This document shows positions 39,934-60,164 of a stretch of DNA of 64,000 nucleotides, one piece after another. The translations under genes were made by a program, and so were the position numbers. Source of the DNA: Acidobacteriaceae bacterium (GTDB lineage: Bacteria > Acidobacteriota > Terriglobia > Terriglobales > Acidobacteriaceae); NCBI GenBank assembly GCA_003156805.1, contig PMHV01000030.1, positions 11,261 through 75,260 of the forward strand, written 5' to 3'. The notes under the pieces were generated by a model, which ran no database searches, was not told the origin of the DNA, and was given only the letters and a program-made list of their open reading frames with translations. Within the stretch, counting starts at the first letter, position 1; each line of letters starts with the position of its first letter.

Positions 39934-40677
39934 CTAGGCTTTATGACGCAACTCCACAATCTCAGTTCCGTTTGCTACTAGCACGATGTTTGCCATTCCG
40001 ATGAACAATCCGTGCTCGACCACGCCGGGCATGTCGCTGAGTTGCCGGGCCAGCGCATCGGCATCACGAATCTGGCCGAAGTGGCAATCGAGAATGTGAT
40101 TGTTCTCGTCGGACAGGAAGGGTTTGCCATCGGGTTGCAGGCGCAGGCGAACGTCTGCGCCGAGGGCGGAAATTTTTTTCGCCACCAGCGGCTGGGCGAA
40201 CTTGATCACTTCCACGGGTAAGGGAAATTTCCCCAGCACGGGCACGCGCTTGGTGGCGTCGACGATAATCACGAGTTGCCGGGTTGCCGAAGCGATAATC
40301 TTTTCCCGCAACAATGCGCCGCCGCCTCCTTTGATGAGCCGCAGTTGTGGATCGACTTCATCGGCGCCGTCTACGGTGACGTCGATGGCCTGGCAGTCAT
40401 CGAGCGTGATGAGAGGAATGCCCAGGCCGGCGGCCTGCCGACGCGAACCCTCGGAAGTGGGAATACCGCGAATCTTCAGACCGTCCTTTACCTTTTCACC
40501 CAGCAAGCGGACGAAGAACGCTGCCGTCGAGCCCGTGCCCAGGCCCACGACCTGTCCATCTTTAATAAATTTCAGGCTGGCGCTGGCCGCCGCTTCTTTC
40601 TCTTGATCGTTCTTATGCTGATCGTTCTTGTGTCGATCGTTCTTATGTCGATCGTTTTTATGGAGAGCGTTGGCCAT
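39934..40677 (-). CDS. rpiA: ribose-5-phosphate isomerase A with an N-terminal HKND repeat
   Basis: 247 residues from the ATG at 40677 (a TTG at 40713 is in frame). The enzyme core has VVGLGTGSTAAFFV, VTVDGADEVDPQLRLIKGGGGALLREK with the catalytic Asp, Glu and Lys, and a full-length C-terminus. It interconverts ribose-5-phosphate and ribulose-5-phosphate in the pentose phosphate pathway. Oddly, between the start and the first conserved helix there are four HKND(R/Q) units encoded by a 15-bp tandem repeat (40603-40662). It lies 3' of the GH-like gene, separated by a few bases at most, so it may be co-transcribed. Confidence 0.92.
   Translation of the reverse strand: MANALHKNDRHKNDRHKNDQHKNDQEKEAAASASLKFIKDGQVVGLGTGSTAAFFVRLLGEKVKDGLKIRGIPTSEGSRRQAAGLGIPLITLDDCQAIDVTVDGADEVDPQLRLIKGGGGALLREKIIASATRQLVIIVDATKRVPVLGKFPLPVEVIKFAQPLVAKKISALGADVRLRLQPDGKPFLSDENNHILDCHFGQIRDADALARQLSDMPGVVEHGLFIGMANIVLVANGTEIVELRHKA
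40603..40662 (-). repeat. 15-bp coding minisatellite in rpiA (4 units)
   Basis: Four units of the type CATAAGAACGATCGA, each encoding HKND plus R or Q. Because the unit is a multiple of three, copy-number change keeps the frame. Confidence 0.85.
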
Positions 40678-40715
40678 TCGCGTTTTGGCACGACGTTGAA
40701 ATTGGTTCTTCAAGG

Positions 40716-56648: not shown

Positions 56649-57341
56649 GTGAAACCCAGCATCTTTGTTGTCGAAGACGATCCCGATATTTCCCGCCTCG
56701 TTCGCCACCACCTGGAAAACGACGGCTTCGCCGTACGCGTTTATCCCAACGGCGCCACCGTACTCAGCGACGCCGAGCGCCAGCGCCCGGCATTGTTCGT
56801 GCTCGACATCATGGTGCCCGGCAAAGACGGTCTCGAACTCTGCCGCACGGTCCGGCAGAATCCCGGTCTGGCGTCCGTGCCTGTGATTTTCCTGACCGCC
56901 AAGAGCAGCGAAGCCGACCGCGTGCTCGGTCTCGAGATCGGCGCCGACGACTATATCGCCAAGCCTTTCAGCCCGCGCGAACTTGTGGCCCGAGTCAAGG
57001 CCGTGCTGCGCCGCTTTGAGCGCCCGCTTCCGCCCAGCCCGCTCAAAGTCGGCGACATCGAAATCGACCCCTCGGCCATGACTCTCACCGTTCGCGGACA
57101 AACCGTTTCCACCACCGCCACCGAGTTCCGCCTGCTCGATTACTTTGCCCGCCATCTCGGCCGGGTTTTTTCGCGAGATCATCTTCTCGATTCCGTCTGG
57201 CGTGACACTTCCTACGTCACCCCGCGCTCGGTCGATGTCTATGTCCGCCGCATCCGCGAAAAAATCGAGCCTGACCCGGAAAATCCGCGCTACCTCAAAA
57301 CCGTACGCGGCGCAGGGTATCGTTTCGAGGCTCCGAAGTGA
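56649..57341 (+). CDS. phoB: PhoB-type response regulator (OmpR family)
   Basis: 230 residues, starting at GTG 56649. Receiver domain with Glu9-Asp10-Asp11, phosphoacceptor Asp53 (FVLDIMVPGKDG) and Lys at YIAKPF; the C-terminus is a winged helix with STTATEFRLLDYFARHLGRV and YVRRIREKIEPDPENPRYLK. It should bind promoter DNA once phosphorylated. The next gene, a PhoR-like kinase, overlaps its stop codon by 4 nt, and PhoU follows, so the pair is assigned to phosphate-starvation control by context. Confidence 0.9.
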   Translation: MKPSIFVVEDDPDISRLVRHHLENDGFAVRVYPNGATVLSDAERQRPALFVLDIMVPGKDGLELCRTVRQNPGLASVPVIFLTAKSSEADRVLGLEIGADDYIAKPFSPRELVARVKAVLRRFERPLPPSPLKVGDIEIDPSAMTLTVRGQTVSTTATEFRLLDYFARHLGRVFSRDHLLDSVWRDTSYVTPRSVDVYVRRIREKIEPDPENPRYLKTVRGAGYRFEAPK

Positions 57342-59233
57342 GAAGCCGGATTTTCTTCAAGCTGCTGGCGGCTTTTGTTTTTGTCATTGCCGCCGCAGCC
57401 GTCACCTTTGACTTCATGCTGGCCGGTTCCTGGGAATCTTCGTTGCGTAGCGAGGTGCAGCGCAATCTCACCCAGAAGACACAACTCCTCGCTCACCGCG
57501 TCGAAACCGACCGCAGCGGCCACTCCCTTGCCGATATTGCCGCCCAGGAAGGCCAGGCCGCCGGCGCTCGCGCCACCATCATCGATCCCACGGGCAACGT
57601 GCTCGCAGATTCCGAAGCCAATCCTGCCAGCCTGCAGAACGAAGCTCAGCGCAAGGAATTCGTCGCAGCTCTTTCCGGCAACATTGGCGTCGACGAGCGC
57701 CGCAGCGCTACAGTCGGAATCCCATTTCTCTACGTGGCTGTGCCCGTCTCCGGAGGCGCGGTGCGCCTCGCCTATCCGCTCTCCGATGTCGAAGCGGTTT
57801 CGGCGCAGGTGCATCGCAGACTCGCGCTGGCCTCAGCCCTGGCTCTTGTTTTCGCGATTCTCGTCGCCGTTACGGCTGCATCGTGGAGCGCCCGCCGCTT
57901 TGACCGCATTGTCGATGGGGCCGCGCGTATCGCCCAGGGCGATCTCCAGGCCCGCATCCAGGAAACTTCTCCCGACGAAATCGGCCGCGCGGCCGGCGCC
58001 ATCGACAAAACCGCGTTGCGCGTGGAAGAAAGCTTCGCCGCTGTGCGTTCCAGCCAGCACCAACTGGAAACTCTGCTCAACAGCATGGAAGACGCCGTCA
58101 TTGCCGTCAGCGCCGATGGAGTTGTGCAATGGGCTAGTGAGCCCATGAACCGGCTTGTCCCTCAGCACACCCGCCTGCACCAGCCGGTGGTGGAAACCAT
58201 CCGCGACCCGGATTTCCTGGCCGCTGTCAATCAAGCCATTGCCACCCGCGAAGTCAAAACCTCGCGCGCCACGTCCATCGTGCCCGGCCGCGTCTTCGAT
58301 GTCACCGCCGCGCCATTGCCCGGCGGCGGCGCAGTCGCCGTGCTCCGCGATCTCACCGAAACCGAACGCGTCGAAAAAACCCGCCGCGATTTCATCGCCA
58401 ACGTCTCTCATGAACTCCGCACGCCTCTCACTTCCATTCAGGGCTACGCCGAAACTCTGCTCGATGGCGCTCCCGACGGCGGCGCGCCCAACCGCGAGTT
58501 TCTCGAGATCATTCGCAAGAACGCCGCTCGCATGTCGCGCCTTACCGAAGATCTGCTGACTCTCGCCCGCGTCGAATCCGGCGAAACTCGTTTCGAGATC
58601 GAGCGCGTTCCGCCGGTCGAGTTGCTTCACGACGCGGAAGAGAGCTTCCGCGAAATCGCCCGCGCCCAGGGCGTTGACTTGCAGATCCAGGACTTGCAGA
58701 TCCAGGACTTGCAGATCCAAGACTCGAAGATCCAAGATCCGCAGAACAAGGATTCGCAAAATAAAGATCTGCAAAACAAAGAGCTTCTCAACAACAAAGA
58801 TTTGCGGAACAATTCTTTGGCGAACGACGACCCGCAGATTCAAGGCCTGCAGCAGCGCGGCAACGGACTTGCAGAATCATTGCCGCCGGTTCTCGCCGAT
58901 CGCGAAGCCATTCATCAGGTCTTTTCGAATTTGATCGGCAATGCCATGAAATACGGCTCCTCCGGCGGCCGCATCGTCCTGGGAGTGCGCCCCGCTGCGC
59001 GCGGCGTTGAATTCTTTGTGCAGGATTTCGGCGCCGGCATTCCCTCCGAGCACCTTCCGCGCCTGTTCGAGCGTTTTTACCGCGTCGACAAAGCCCGCTC
59101 CCGCGAATCCGGAGGCACCGGCCTCGGCCTCGCCATCGCCAAACACATCGTGCTCGCCCACGGCGGCTCCATCCGCGCCGAAAGCGAACTCGCCCATGGT
59201 TCGACTTTTCTGTTTACGCTTCCGACAGCCTAG
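57338..59233 (+). CDS. phoR: PhoR-like sensor histidine kinase with a pentapeptide-repeat insert
   Basis: 631 residues, starting at GTG 57338 within the phoB stop. TM1 near residues 5-25, a periplasmic-type region to about 150, TM2 (about 162-185), HAMP (about 186-238), PAS (about 240-345), HisKA with SHELRTPLTSIQGY and His358, and HATPase_c with FSNLIGNAMKYG, DFGAGIP and GGTGLGLAIAKH. Between HisKA and the ATPase box, residues 447-492 are nine degenerate DLQIQ/DLQNK units from a 15-bp DNA repeat, where homologues have a short strand. It should phosphorylate PhoB. Whether the insert harms the ATP domain is unclear. Confidence 0.9.
   Translation: MRSRIFFKLLAAFVFVIAAAAVTFDFMLAGSWESSLRSEVQRNLTQKTQLLAHRVETDRSGHSLADIAAQEGQAAGARATIIDPTGNVLADSEANPASLQNEAQRKEFVAALSGNIGVDERRSATVGIPFLYVAVPVSGGAVRLAYPLSDVEAVSAQVHRRLALASALALVFAILVAVTAASWSARRFDRIVDGAARIAQGDLQARIQETSPDEIGRAAGAIDKTALRVEESFAAVRSSQHQLETLLNSMEDAVIAVSADGVVQWASEPMNRLVPQHTRLHQPVVETIRDPDFLAAVNQAIATREVKTSRATSIVPGRVFDVTAAPLPGGGAVAVLRDLTETERVEKTRRDFIANVSHELRTPLTSIQGYAETLLDGAPDGGAPNREFLEIIRKNAARMSRLTEDLLTLARVESGETRFEIERVPPVELLHDAEESFREIARAQGVDLQIQDLQIQDLQIQDSKIQDPQNKDSQNKDLQNKELLNNKDLRNNSLANDDPQIQGLQQRGNGLAESLPPVLADREAIHQVFSNLIGNAMKYGSSGGRIVLGVRPAARGVEFFVQDFGAGIPSEHLPRLFERFYRVDKARSRESGGTGLGLAIAKHIVLAHGGSIRAESELAHGSTFLFTLPTA
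58676..58813 (+). repeat. 15-bp coding minisatellite in phoR (about 9 units)
   Basis: First three units are nearly identical (GACTTGCAGATCCAG), later ones diverge to GATCTGCAAAACAAA types; one unit has 18 bp. All keep the frame and encode D-L/S/P-Q/K-I/N-Q/K. Older units lie towards the 3' side. Confidence 0.9.
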
Positions 59234-59438: not shown

Positions 59439-60164
59439 ATGAGTACCGCCAGCCTCAAAGCTCCCGATCCTGAGCCGGTGCACCACTACCTGGTTCGCCG
59501 CACCGTTGAAGCCTGTCGTCTGGCCAAGGAAGCTGCCGGCGCCGCTGCCGAGGGCATTGCCACCGGCTCTTCGCCCTTATTGAACTCGCTGCACCAGCGT
59601 GAGCGCGAGCTCGACGCGCTCGACATGGAAATCGATAGCGGTGTCACCGCGGCCATCACCGAGGTCACCCCGGCCGAGGCCCGCGAACTGCTTGCCTGTA
59701 TGAAGTTCATGATTGGCCTCGAGCGCATCGGCGATCTTCTTCTCAGCTTTGCCAACAGCGCGCAAGCCGCCGCCGGACGCGTCGATTCCGAAGACACCCG
59801 CGATCTCACCCAGATGGCCACCATCCTCGAAAAAATGCTCACCGACGTAGGCGCCGCTTTTTCCACCCGCGACGTCGGCAAAGCCGTCGATGTTCTTCGC
59901 GCCGATTCTGAGATGGACCGCCTGCGCAACCTTATCTTCCTGCGCCACATCGAGAATCCGGAGAACGTCCATCGCCAAGCCAGCCTCCAAGTCATCTTCA
60001 TGACCCAATCTCTCGAGCGCGCCGGCGACCACGCGAAAAACCTCGCCGAGGAGGTTTGCCACTTCGTCAGCGGCCACACTGTCCGCCACGTCCTCATGGC
60101 CTACGACAAACCCGTCGAACAAATGTTCATCGACTGGCTCCGCCGCCGCGACCAGCACCGCTAA
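59439..60164 (+). CDS. phoU: PhoU phosphate-signalling regulator
   Basis: 241 residues from the ATG at 59439, with AAGGA about 10 nt upstream; the frame is open to 59007 but that part overlaps phoR and is not coding. Two repeated three-helix halves carry the PhoU metal-binding patterns: IGLERIGDLLLSFANSA in the first half and QSLERAGDHAKNLAEEV in the second. PhoU links the Pst transporter to PhoR and represses the regulon when phosphate is ample. No pst genes are in this window. Confidence 0.9.
   Translation: MSTASLKAPDPEPVHHYLVRRTVEACRLAKEAAGAAAEGIATGSSPLLNSLHQRERELDALDMEIDSGVTAAITEVTPAEARELLACMKFMIGLERIGDLLLSFANSAQAAAGRVDSEDTRDLTQMATILEKMLTDVGAAFSTRDVGKAVDVLRADSEMDRLRNLIFLRHIENPENVHRQASLQVIFMTQSLERAGDHAKNLAEEVCHFVSGHTVRHVLMAYDKPVEQMFIDWLRRRDQHR

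Follow-up and report, generated by a model that had tools for sequence, protein, structure and literature searches.

A 15-bp coding minisatellite in a PhoR-like sensor kinase and an excess of 15-bp tandem duplications in an Acidobacteriaceae genome

Rickettsia palindromic elements make in-frame additions to unrelated genes and form one dispersed family. MutL belongs to the same ATPase superfamily as the histidine kinases. Three papers describe coding repeats with which the tract studied below can be compared. In Salmonella and E. coli, slippage changes the copy number of a 6-bp tandem repeat of MutL (LALALA), which is located in the lid over the ATP-binding pocket (PMC2955026). This repeat resembles the tract of the PhoR-like kinase in being in-frame and apparently slippage-prone. 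However, it is short, fixed at three copies and a tested functional switch (PMC2955026), whereas the PhoR tract is long, degenerate and located in a hairpin turn. In the omega loop of the Burkholderia beta-lactamase PenA, de novo tandem repeats were obtained under drug selection, with a known gain, and were ascribed to short direct repeats or to same-strand complementary sequences (PMC4169377). The likeness lies here in in-frame, reversible duplications of local sequence within a protein loop. In the text consulted, PenA gives no sign of one favoured period (PMC4169377); the PhoR tract, for its part, gives no sign of selection. Finally, coding satellites of prokaryotes likewise have periods in multiples of three inside genes, but many of those surveyed encode amino acid repeats in repeat-bearing proteins, whereas the arrays reported here are tags in single-copy enzymes; the searched text of that survey mentions neither Acidobacteria nor a 15-bp class (PMC6749651). 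Coding minisatellites are known; what is unusual in the present case is the length that is preferred and the genes that act as hosts. No account of it was found in the open-licence literature on Acidobacteria minisatellites or tandem repeats, on kinase tandem repeats or on 15-bp pentapeptide insertions.

The window, i.e. the whole stretch of 64,000 nucleotides that was analysed, contains in a row a PhoB-like regulator, a histidine kinase of 631 residues and a PhoU-like gene:

56649..57341, + strand, PhoB-like response regulator (best model NCBIfam TIGR02154 PhoB, matched at 249.0 bits against a curated cut-off of 296.2)
57338..59233, + strand, PhoR-like sensor histidine kinase of 631 residues, starting at GTG (HAMP, HisKA and HATPase_c of Pfam, each above its cut-off)
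58382..58582, + strand, HisKA (phospho-acceptor) domain, residues 349-415 (Pfam, 81.9 bits, cut-off 26.9)
58898..59227, + strand, HATPase_c domain match, residues 521-630 (Pfam, 98.1 bits, cut-off 26.4)
59439..60164, + strand, PhoU-like protein (TIGR02135 phoU_full, 97.8 bits, below its cut-off of 130.25)

The HisKA and HATPase_c scores identify a sensor histidine kinase. Its best NCBIfam matches were the PnpS, WalK and PhoR models, all below their curated cut-offs (331.9 vs 400 bits for PnpS; 290.9 vs 334.2 bits for PhoR, TIGR02966). Because all three models match below their cut-offs, 'PhoR-like' is the safe name for this kinase. The neighbouring genes score best with the PhoB and PhoU models, also below the cut-offs.

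The tract of interest lies within the kinase gene and can be divided as follows:

58676..58858, + strand, whole degenerate pentapeptide array of 12 units, one of 18 bp (TRF and in-register reading)
58676..58720, + strand, three near-identical 15-bp units (identity to unit 1: 15, 15 and 14 of 15)
58676..58690, + strand, unit 1, putative master copy, encoding DLQIQ of the conserved first ATPase strand (orthologue codons and AlphaFold2 strand E107-110)

Run on the window, TRF reported an array at 58676-58734 (period 15, 3.9 copies, 93% match, score 97), the degenerate continuation of which reaches 58812. When read in register, the array starts with seven 15-bp units, which are followed by an 18-bp unit and four further degenerate ones. 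The corresponding peptide is DLQIQ DLQIQ DLQIQ DSKIQ DPQNK DSQNK DLQNK ELLNNK DLRNN SLAND DPQIQ GLQQR. Unit 2 is identical to unit 1 and unit 3 is one base off; an earlier note on this DNA had described the first units as almost identical. The same note had ended the repeat at 58813; the array is real, but its end lies about 45 bp further. The open reading frame 57338-59233 is uninterrupted across the whole tract and the array is in-frame. As a chance control, 40 dinucleotide shuffles of the window were rescored with TRF. No period-15 array with a score of at least 50 was found in them, and the best score of any array was 71, as compared to 97 for the kinase array. With tandem units of at least 10 bp, in frame and above chance, the tract is a coding minisatellite. 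Within the 15-bp unit, no 7+8 bp sub-period was detected (z -0.4 at lag 7), and circular lag 2 was below the null (z -2.7).

To place the array in the fold, 37 kinases were aligned. The flanks of the tract show strong conservation, with DLQI and LPPVLA bounding the stretch that varies. In the AlphaFold2 model of the window kinase, obtained with an alignment of 37 rows (mean pLDDT 68), the HisKA helices occupy model residues 2-74, and the linker that follows has a strand and a helix (82-103). Next comes E107-110, the first ATPase strand, which corresponds to DLQI of unit 1; the second one lies at E178-180:

58889..58897, + strand, VLA, the second ATPase strand, on the opposite side of the hairpin (AlphaFold2 model E178-180)

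Model residues 114-169 are without structure (pLDDT < 50). The control model of a short-loop orthologue showed equivalent elements, with strands E107-110 and E122-124. Foldseek returned many kinase cores, 9jfj (ZraS) being the top one. Solved kinases such as 3dge align across the tract site with only a short turn, in agreement with the earlier statement that kinases have only a short strand before the N box at this place. Relatives also have small extra inserts in further loops of the ATPase domain (columns 201-216 and 225-230 of kinase alignment A1), for instance YGSNSGA, YGARYGPSGG and RGIEFGVEF.

Since unit 1 is the first ATPase strand in the model, the further units are predicted to form a loop within the ATPase domain. 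The added units would thereby enlarge the first hairpin turn of this domain, from which about 60 polar residues would protrude as an unstructured loop. The array had been placed in the linker between HisKA and the ATPase domain, and its copy number had been proposed to set the distance between the phosphorylation and ATP domains. Neither proposal is supported: the array starts on the first ATPase strand, as seen in the 37-row alignment and in the AlphaFold2 model with its short-loop control, and with this topology the added units would not lengthen the link from HisKA unless a later unit took the place of unit 1 as the strand. Distance tuning between the two domains was rejected on this ground.

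The length of the loop was then compared in 45 congener genomes, one per species. A complete kinase loop was obtained from 39 of them. G025, G032 and G068, in which a contig ends in the loop, and G017, broken elsewhere, were dropped, and G028 and G062 gave no match; the paralogue G001b was kept solely as an outgroup. In these 39 same-genus orthologues, the loop measures 8-64 residues with a median of 13, the window kinase having the longest one. The remainder of the protein measures 560-576 residues in 36 complete rows. Loop lengths of 12, 17, 22, 27 or 32 residues, five apart, account for 19 of the 39, a count in which the species are not independent since related ones share lengths. Low-threshold TRF, applied to 40 rows, found period-15 arrays in the loop of four species besides the window one (G026, G004, G009 and G019). 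In a loop-free tree, G026 groups with the array-less G061 (support 90) and G004 groups with G012 (support 86), which is without the VVETN duplication of G004. As judged from these sequences, separate species carry their own 15-bp duplications in the kinase loop. Copy number differs between related species. One and the same copy number everywhere, named in the earlier note as an argument against a variable tract, is not observed between species represented by one genome each. Among the closest pairs, however, there are five (93-97% identical) whose members do not differ in loop length.

Within the genus set, ten contig ends fall inside the kinase gene. Four of them are in the loop (G025 twice, G032, G068) and six elsewhere (G010, G021, G017 twice, G024 twice). 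The proportion of 4/10 compares with about 4% of the gene expected (approximate binomial p of 5e-4 when ends are counted and 2e-3 when genomes are counted, with numbers entered by hand). A mixture of copy numbers among the populations sampled might produce such ends, but so can repeats or low coverage in the assembly.

These data bear on the idea of a copy-number rheostat, in which slippage would alter the kinase/phosphatase activity and tune the phosphate response within a population through the loop, rather than through a spacer. The near-identical first units would be a substrate for slippage, nearly all species apart from the closest ones differ in loop length, and the loop contig ends of 3 of the 45 congener genomes could be read as mixed copy numbers. 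However, such ends have the other sources just given, the five close pairs do not differ, and similar arrays occur in many metabolic enzymes of the same genome (see below). The presence of 15-bp coding arrays in many unrelated enzymes counts against a role specific to PhoR, and we consider the rheostat unlikely. A change in strand choice is less probable still. If unit 2 or unit 3 were used as the first ATPase strand, the HisKA-ATPase linker would be lengthened and signalling altered. Units 1-3 all read DLQIQ and would be suited to this, but the exchange is feasible for just three of the 12 units, and AlphaFold2 places the strand in unit 1, though its input alignment biases the model towards that unit.

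In order to examine the genome background, 837 kb of this genome were surveyed (17%, a contig-based sample and not a random one). TRF detected 98 arrays with a period of at least 7. Period 15 was the commonest, with 34 arrays, as compared to 15 for period 14 and 6 for period 16. A crude gene caller places 25 of the 34 period-15 arrays within genes, 2 at edges and 7 in intergenic DNA. Since 84% of the sample is genic according to this caller, the period-15 arrays show no enrichment in coding sequence. Many period-14 units resemble doubled heptamers by eye, for instance CGACTAACGACCAA and GTTCTCAGTTCTCG, and the period-14 arrays of L191, L181 and L200 are in intergenic or edge regions, mostly outside genes.

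Near-perfect 15-bp duplications were counted next. Outside the window, 773 kb of this genome contain 20 of them, against 7 in 778 kb from 22 congeners (p 0.012). Sequence of other families of the class, 774 kb in all, has 2 (p 7e-5). The density is thus about 3-fold that of congeners and 10-fold that of the other families. None was found in shuffles of this genome's sample, nor in a Firmicutes control set of 293 kb. Duplications of 12 bp are about as frequent as those of 15 bp in this genome (27, as compared to 5.3 in shuffles), but the other families have 19, so that this class is not raised. Overall, the period-15 excess is supported at the level of the species. A genus-wide excess is suggested by the repeated cases, the difference in density between congeners and other families being not significant (p 0.18).

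The 25 coding arrays are held by 24 open reading frames, 20 of which were scanned with Pfam together with the PhoR-like kinase, the three weak ones being left out. The array is inside a domain match in 8 of the 20 scanned hosts (GltX, MoeA, RibBA, RimM, a CHAT protein, a 4-alpha-glucanotransferase, a squalene/phytoene synthase and a PfkB kinase). In the 12 others it is outside the best Pfam matches, often in tails or linkers. Besides the kinase gene, the window has a host in an RpiA-like gene:

39934..40713, - strand, RpiA-like gene with a second 15-bp coding array (Pfam Rib_5-P_isom_A, 210.6 bits)
40605..40662, - strand, 15-bp array HKNDR HKNDR HKNDQ HKNDQ in the RpiA N-terminal tail (TRF period 15, 3.9 copies, score 88)

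This HKNDR/HKNDQ array is missing from the orthologues. Four of 29 other congeners (G002, G029, G063 and G066) have their own additions in steps of five residues in the same tail, and G036 has an addition of three residues. For GltX, the glutamyl-tRNA synthetase, 30 loci gave 29 aligned rows, G018 being without a readable frame. GltX of the window species has 15 extra residues, RSGEQ RSGEQ RSGET, which the 28 other aligned congeners are without. The added unit resembles the congeners' local RSGAQ or KSGAQ (ERSGAQ-type sequence).

As far as can be read from their sequences, each array examined copies local sequence and the units share no family. The mutual likeness of the 34 period-15 units is that of shuffled units (mean 7.52 vs 7.41, best 12 vs 11-12). 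This bears on a dispersed repeat or mobile element of the Rickettsia palindromic type inserted in coding genes. Such an element would account for in-frame insertions in unrelated genes of this genome, and in several congeners GltX has inserts at another site, e.g. VIPSEARDPG. In contrast, the DNA of the PhoR tract is single-copy in the genome, no unit is shared among the 34, and the units of PhoR, RpiA and GltX match the local sequence of their orthologues. Unlike Rickettsia palindromic elements, each array here copies its own locus, and a dispersed element was rejected as highly improbable. An assembly artefact deserves equally little credence: the window's metagenome-derived assembly comprises 75 contigs and errors are common in tandem repeats, but the reading frame is open through every unit, the units have diverged, and comparable arrays are present at other loci and in the assemblies of other species.

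GltX shows other insertions as well. In two sister species (G007 and G067), an insert of about 55 residues is located exactly at the array site of the window species (locus L348, G007:C64:133600-135400; loci L347 and L349, at the end of G067:C119 and the start of G067:C318, the G067 reading being split over two contigs). It matches the RF-1 release-factor domain (Pfam RF-1, 8e-11; RF1 structures, 1.6e-8), without the nine-residue stretch carrying the GGQ loop. Part of a release factor is an odd thing to find within a tRNA synthetase. At a second site, near residues 330-380, inserts such as VIPSEARDPG or WGQPPSAVRFAEGKL are present in G002, G003, G009, G015, G022, G026 and G061 (L318-L338 range). 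The VIPSEARDPG-type inserts read like translated dispersed elements, and VIPSEARD-like peptide patterns are rare elsewhere (1, 1 and 0 six-frame matches in three samples). G001 GltX (L352) has QGAPDA hexapeptide repeats.

We then considered how the kinase units might have grown and aged. The codons of unit 1 are also present in orthologues without an array, for instance GACTTGCAGATTCAGGAC in G061. Along the array, identity to unit 1 drops from 15/15 to 7-11/15 (rho -0.72, p 0.008, 12 units). The polarity is imperfect, unit 11 sharing 11/15 with unit 1. The GC content of the tract is 0.49 as compared to 0.63 in the rest of the gene, and GC3 is 0.68 as compared to 0.71, with no clear abnormality in codon choice. 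Neighbouring units among units 1-7 differ by eight non-synonymous and six synonymous codons. These figures are compatible with selection on the tract as well as with its absence. The simplest account of the sequence is that a conserved master copy has been re-duplicated and that old copies drift.

The reading that we favour, with a probability of about 0.7, is that the lineage has a bias towards 15-bp duplications, the in-frame products of which are tolerated in loops, the PhoR tract being probably near-neutral. Repeated tandem duplication of 15 bp of first-ATPase-strand codons, with slippage as the likely route, would build the in-frame coding minisatellite at the mouth of a hairpin turn that accepts extra residues. 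The first copy would be retained because it serves as the ATPase strand. In a conveyor-like manner, younger copies would adjoin unit 1 and older ones would lie further downstream, decaying, in a loop that is probably near-neutral for kinase activity. PhoR would then be one target of a wider lineage bias that makes 15-bp duplications from local sequence in unrelated genes, and such duplications would persist where frame and fold are unharmed. The earlier note is thus partly supported: its observation was right and the mechanism that it proposed mostly not.

Loops of 15 bases lie beyond mismatch repair. MutS was found over its cut-off in this genome, and loss of mismatch repair was rejected as a cause. 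SbcD gave no match at E 0.001 in the window genome nor in 14 of 20 relatives. Its family cut-off was passed only by G003, and 19 of the other 20 relatives, some of them without period-15 excess, have no full match; SbcD loss was therefore discarded as a specific cause. By analogy with PenA, short direct repeats flanking the seed are a plausible trigger (PMC4169377). A broader proposal, possible but on balance doubtful, is that a quirk of replication or repair favours duplications of exactly 15 bp and supplies the proteins of this lineage with more new peptide loops than any other source. Pentapeptide tags would grow stepwise from local sequence within essential enzymes (GltX, RibBA, RimM, MoeA, PhoR), a single mutational unit would be adding length to the proteome, and transient differences in copy number may be segregating in populations of the soil.

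If the genome-wide 15-bp bias holds, free-living soil bacteria would have a mutation process with one preferred duplication length, which leaves its record in essential proteins. Its cause would be testable, by asking which polymerase, primase or nuclease sets the 15 bp. The arrays would also provide natural loop-insertion sets for studying how enzymes tolerate added sequence. The case calls for checking the genome background before a function is assigned to a repeat in one regulator. Overall, an unusual habit of mutation seems to have left its trace in the PhoR tract, which does not look like a dial of the phosphate response.
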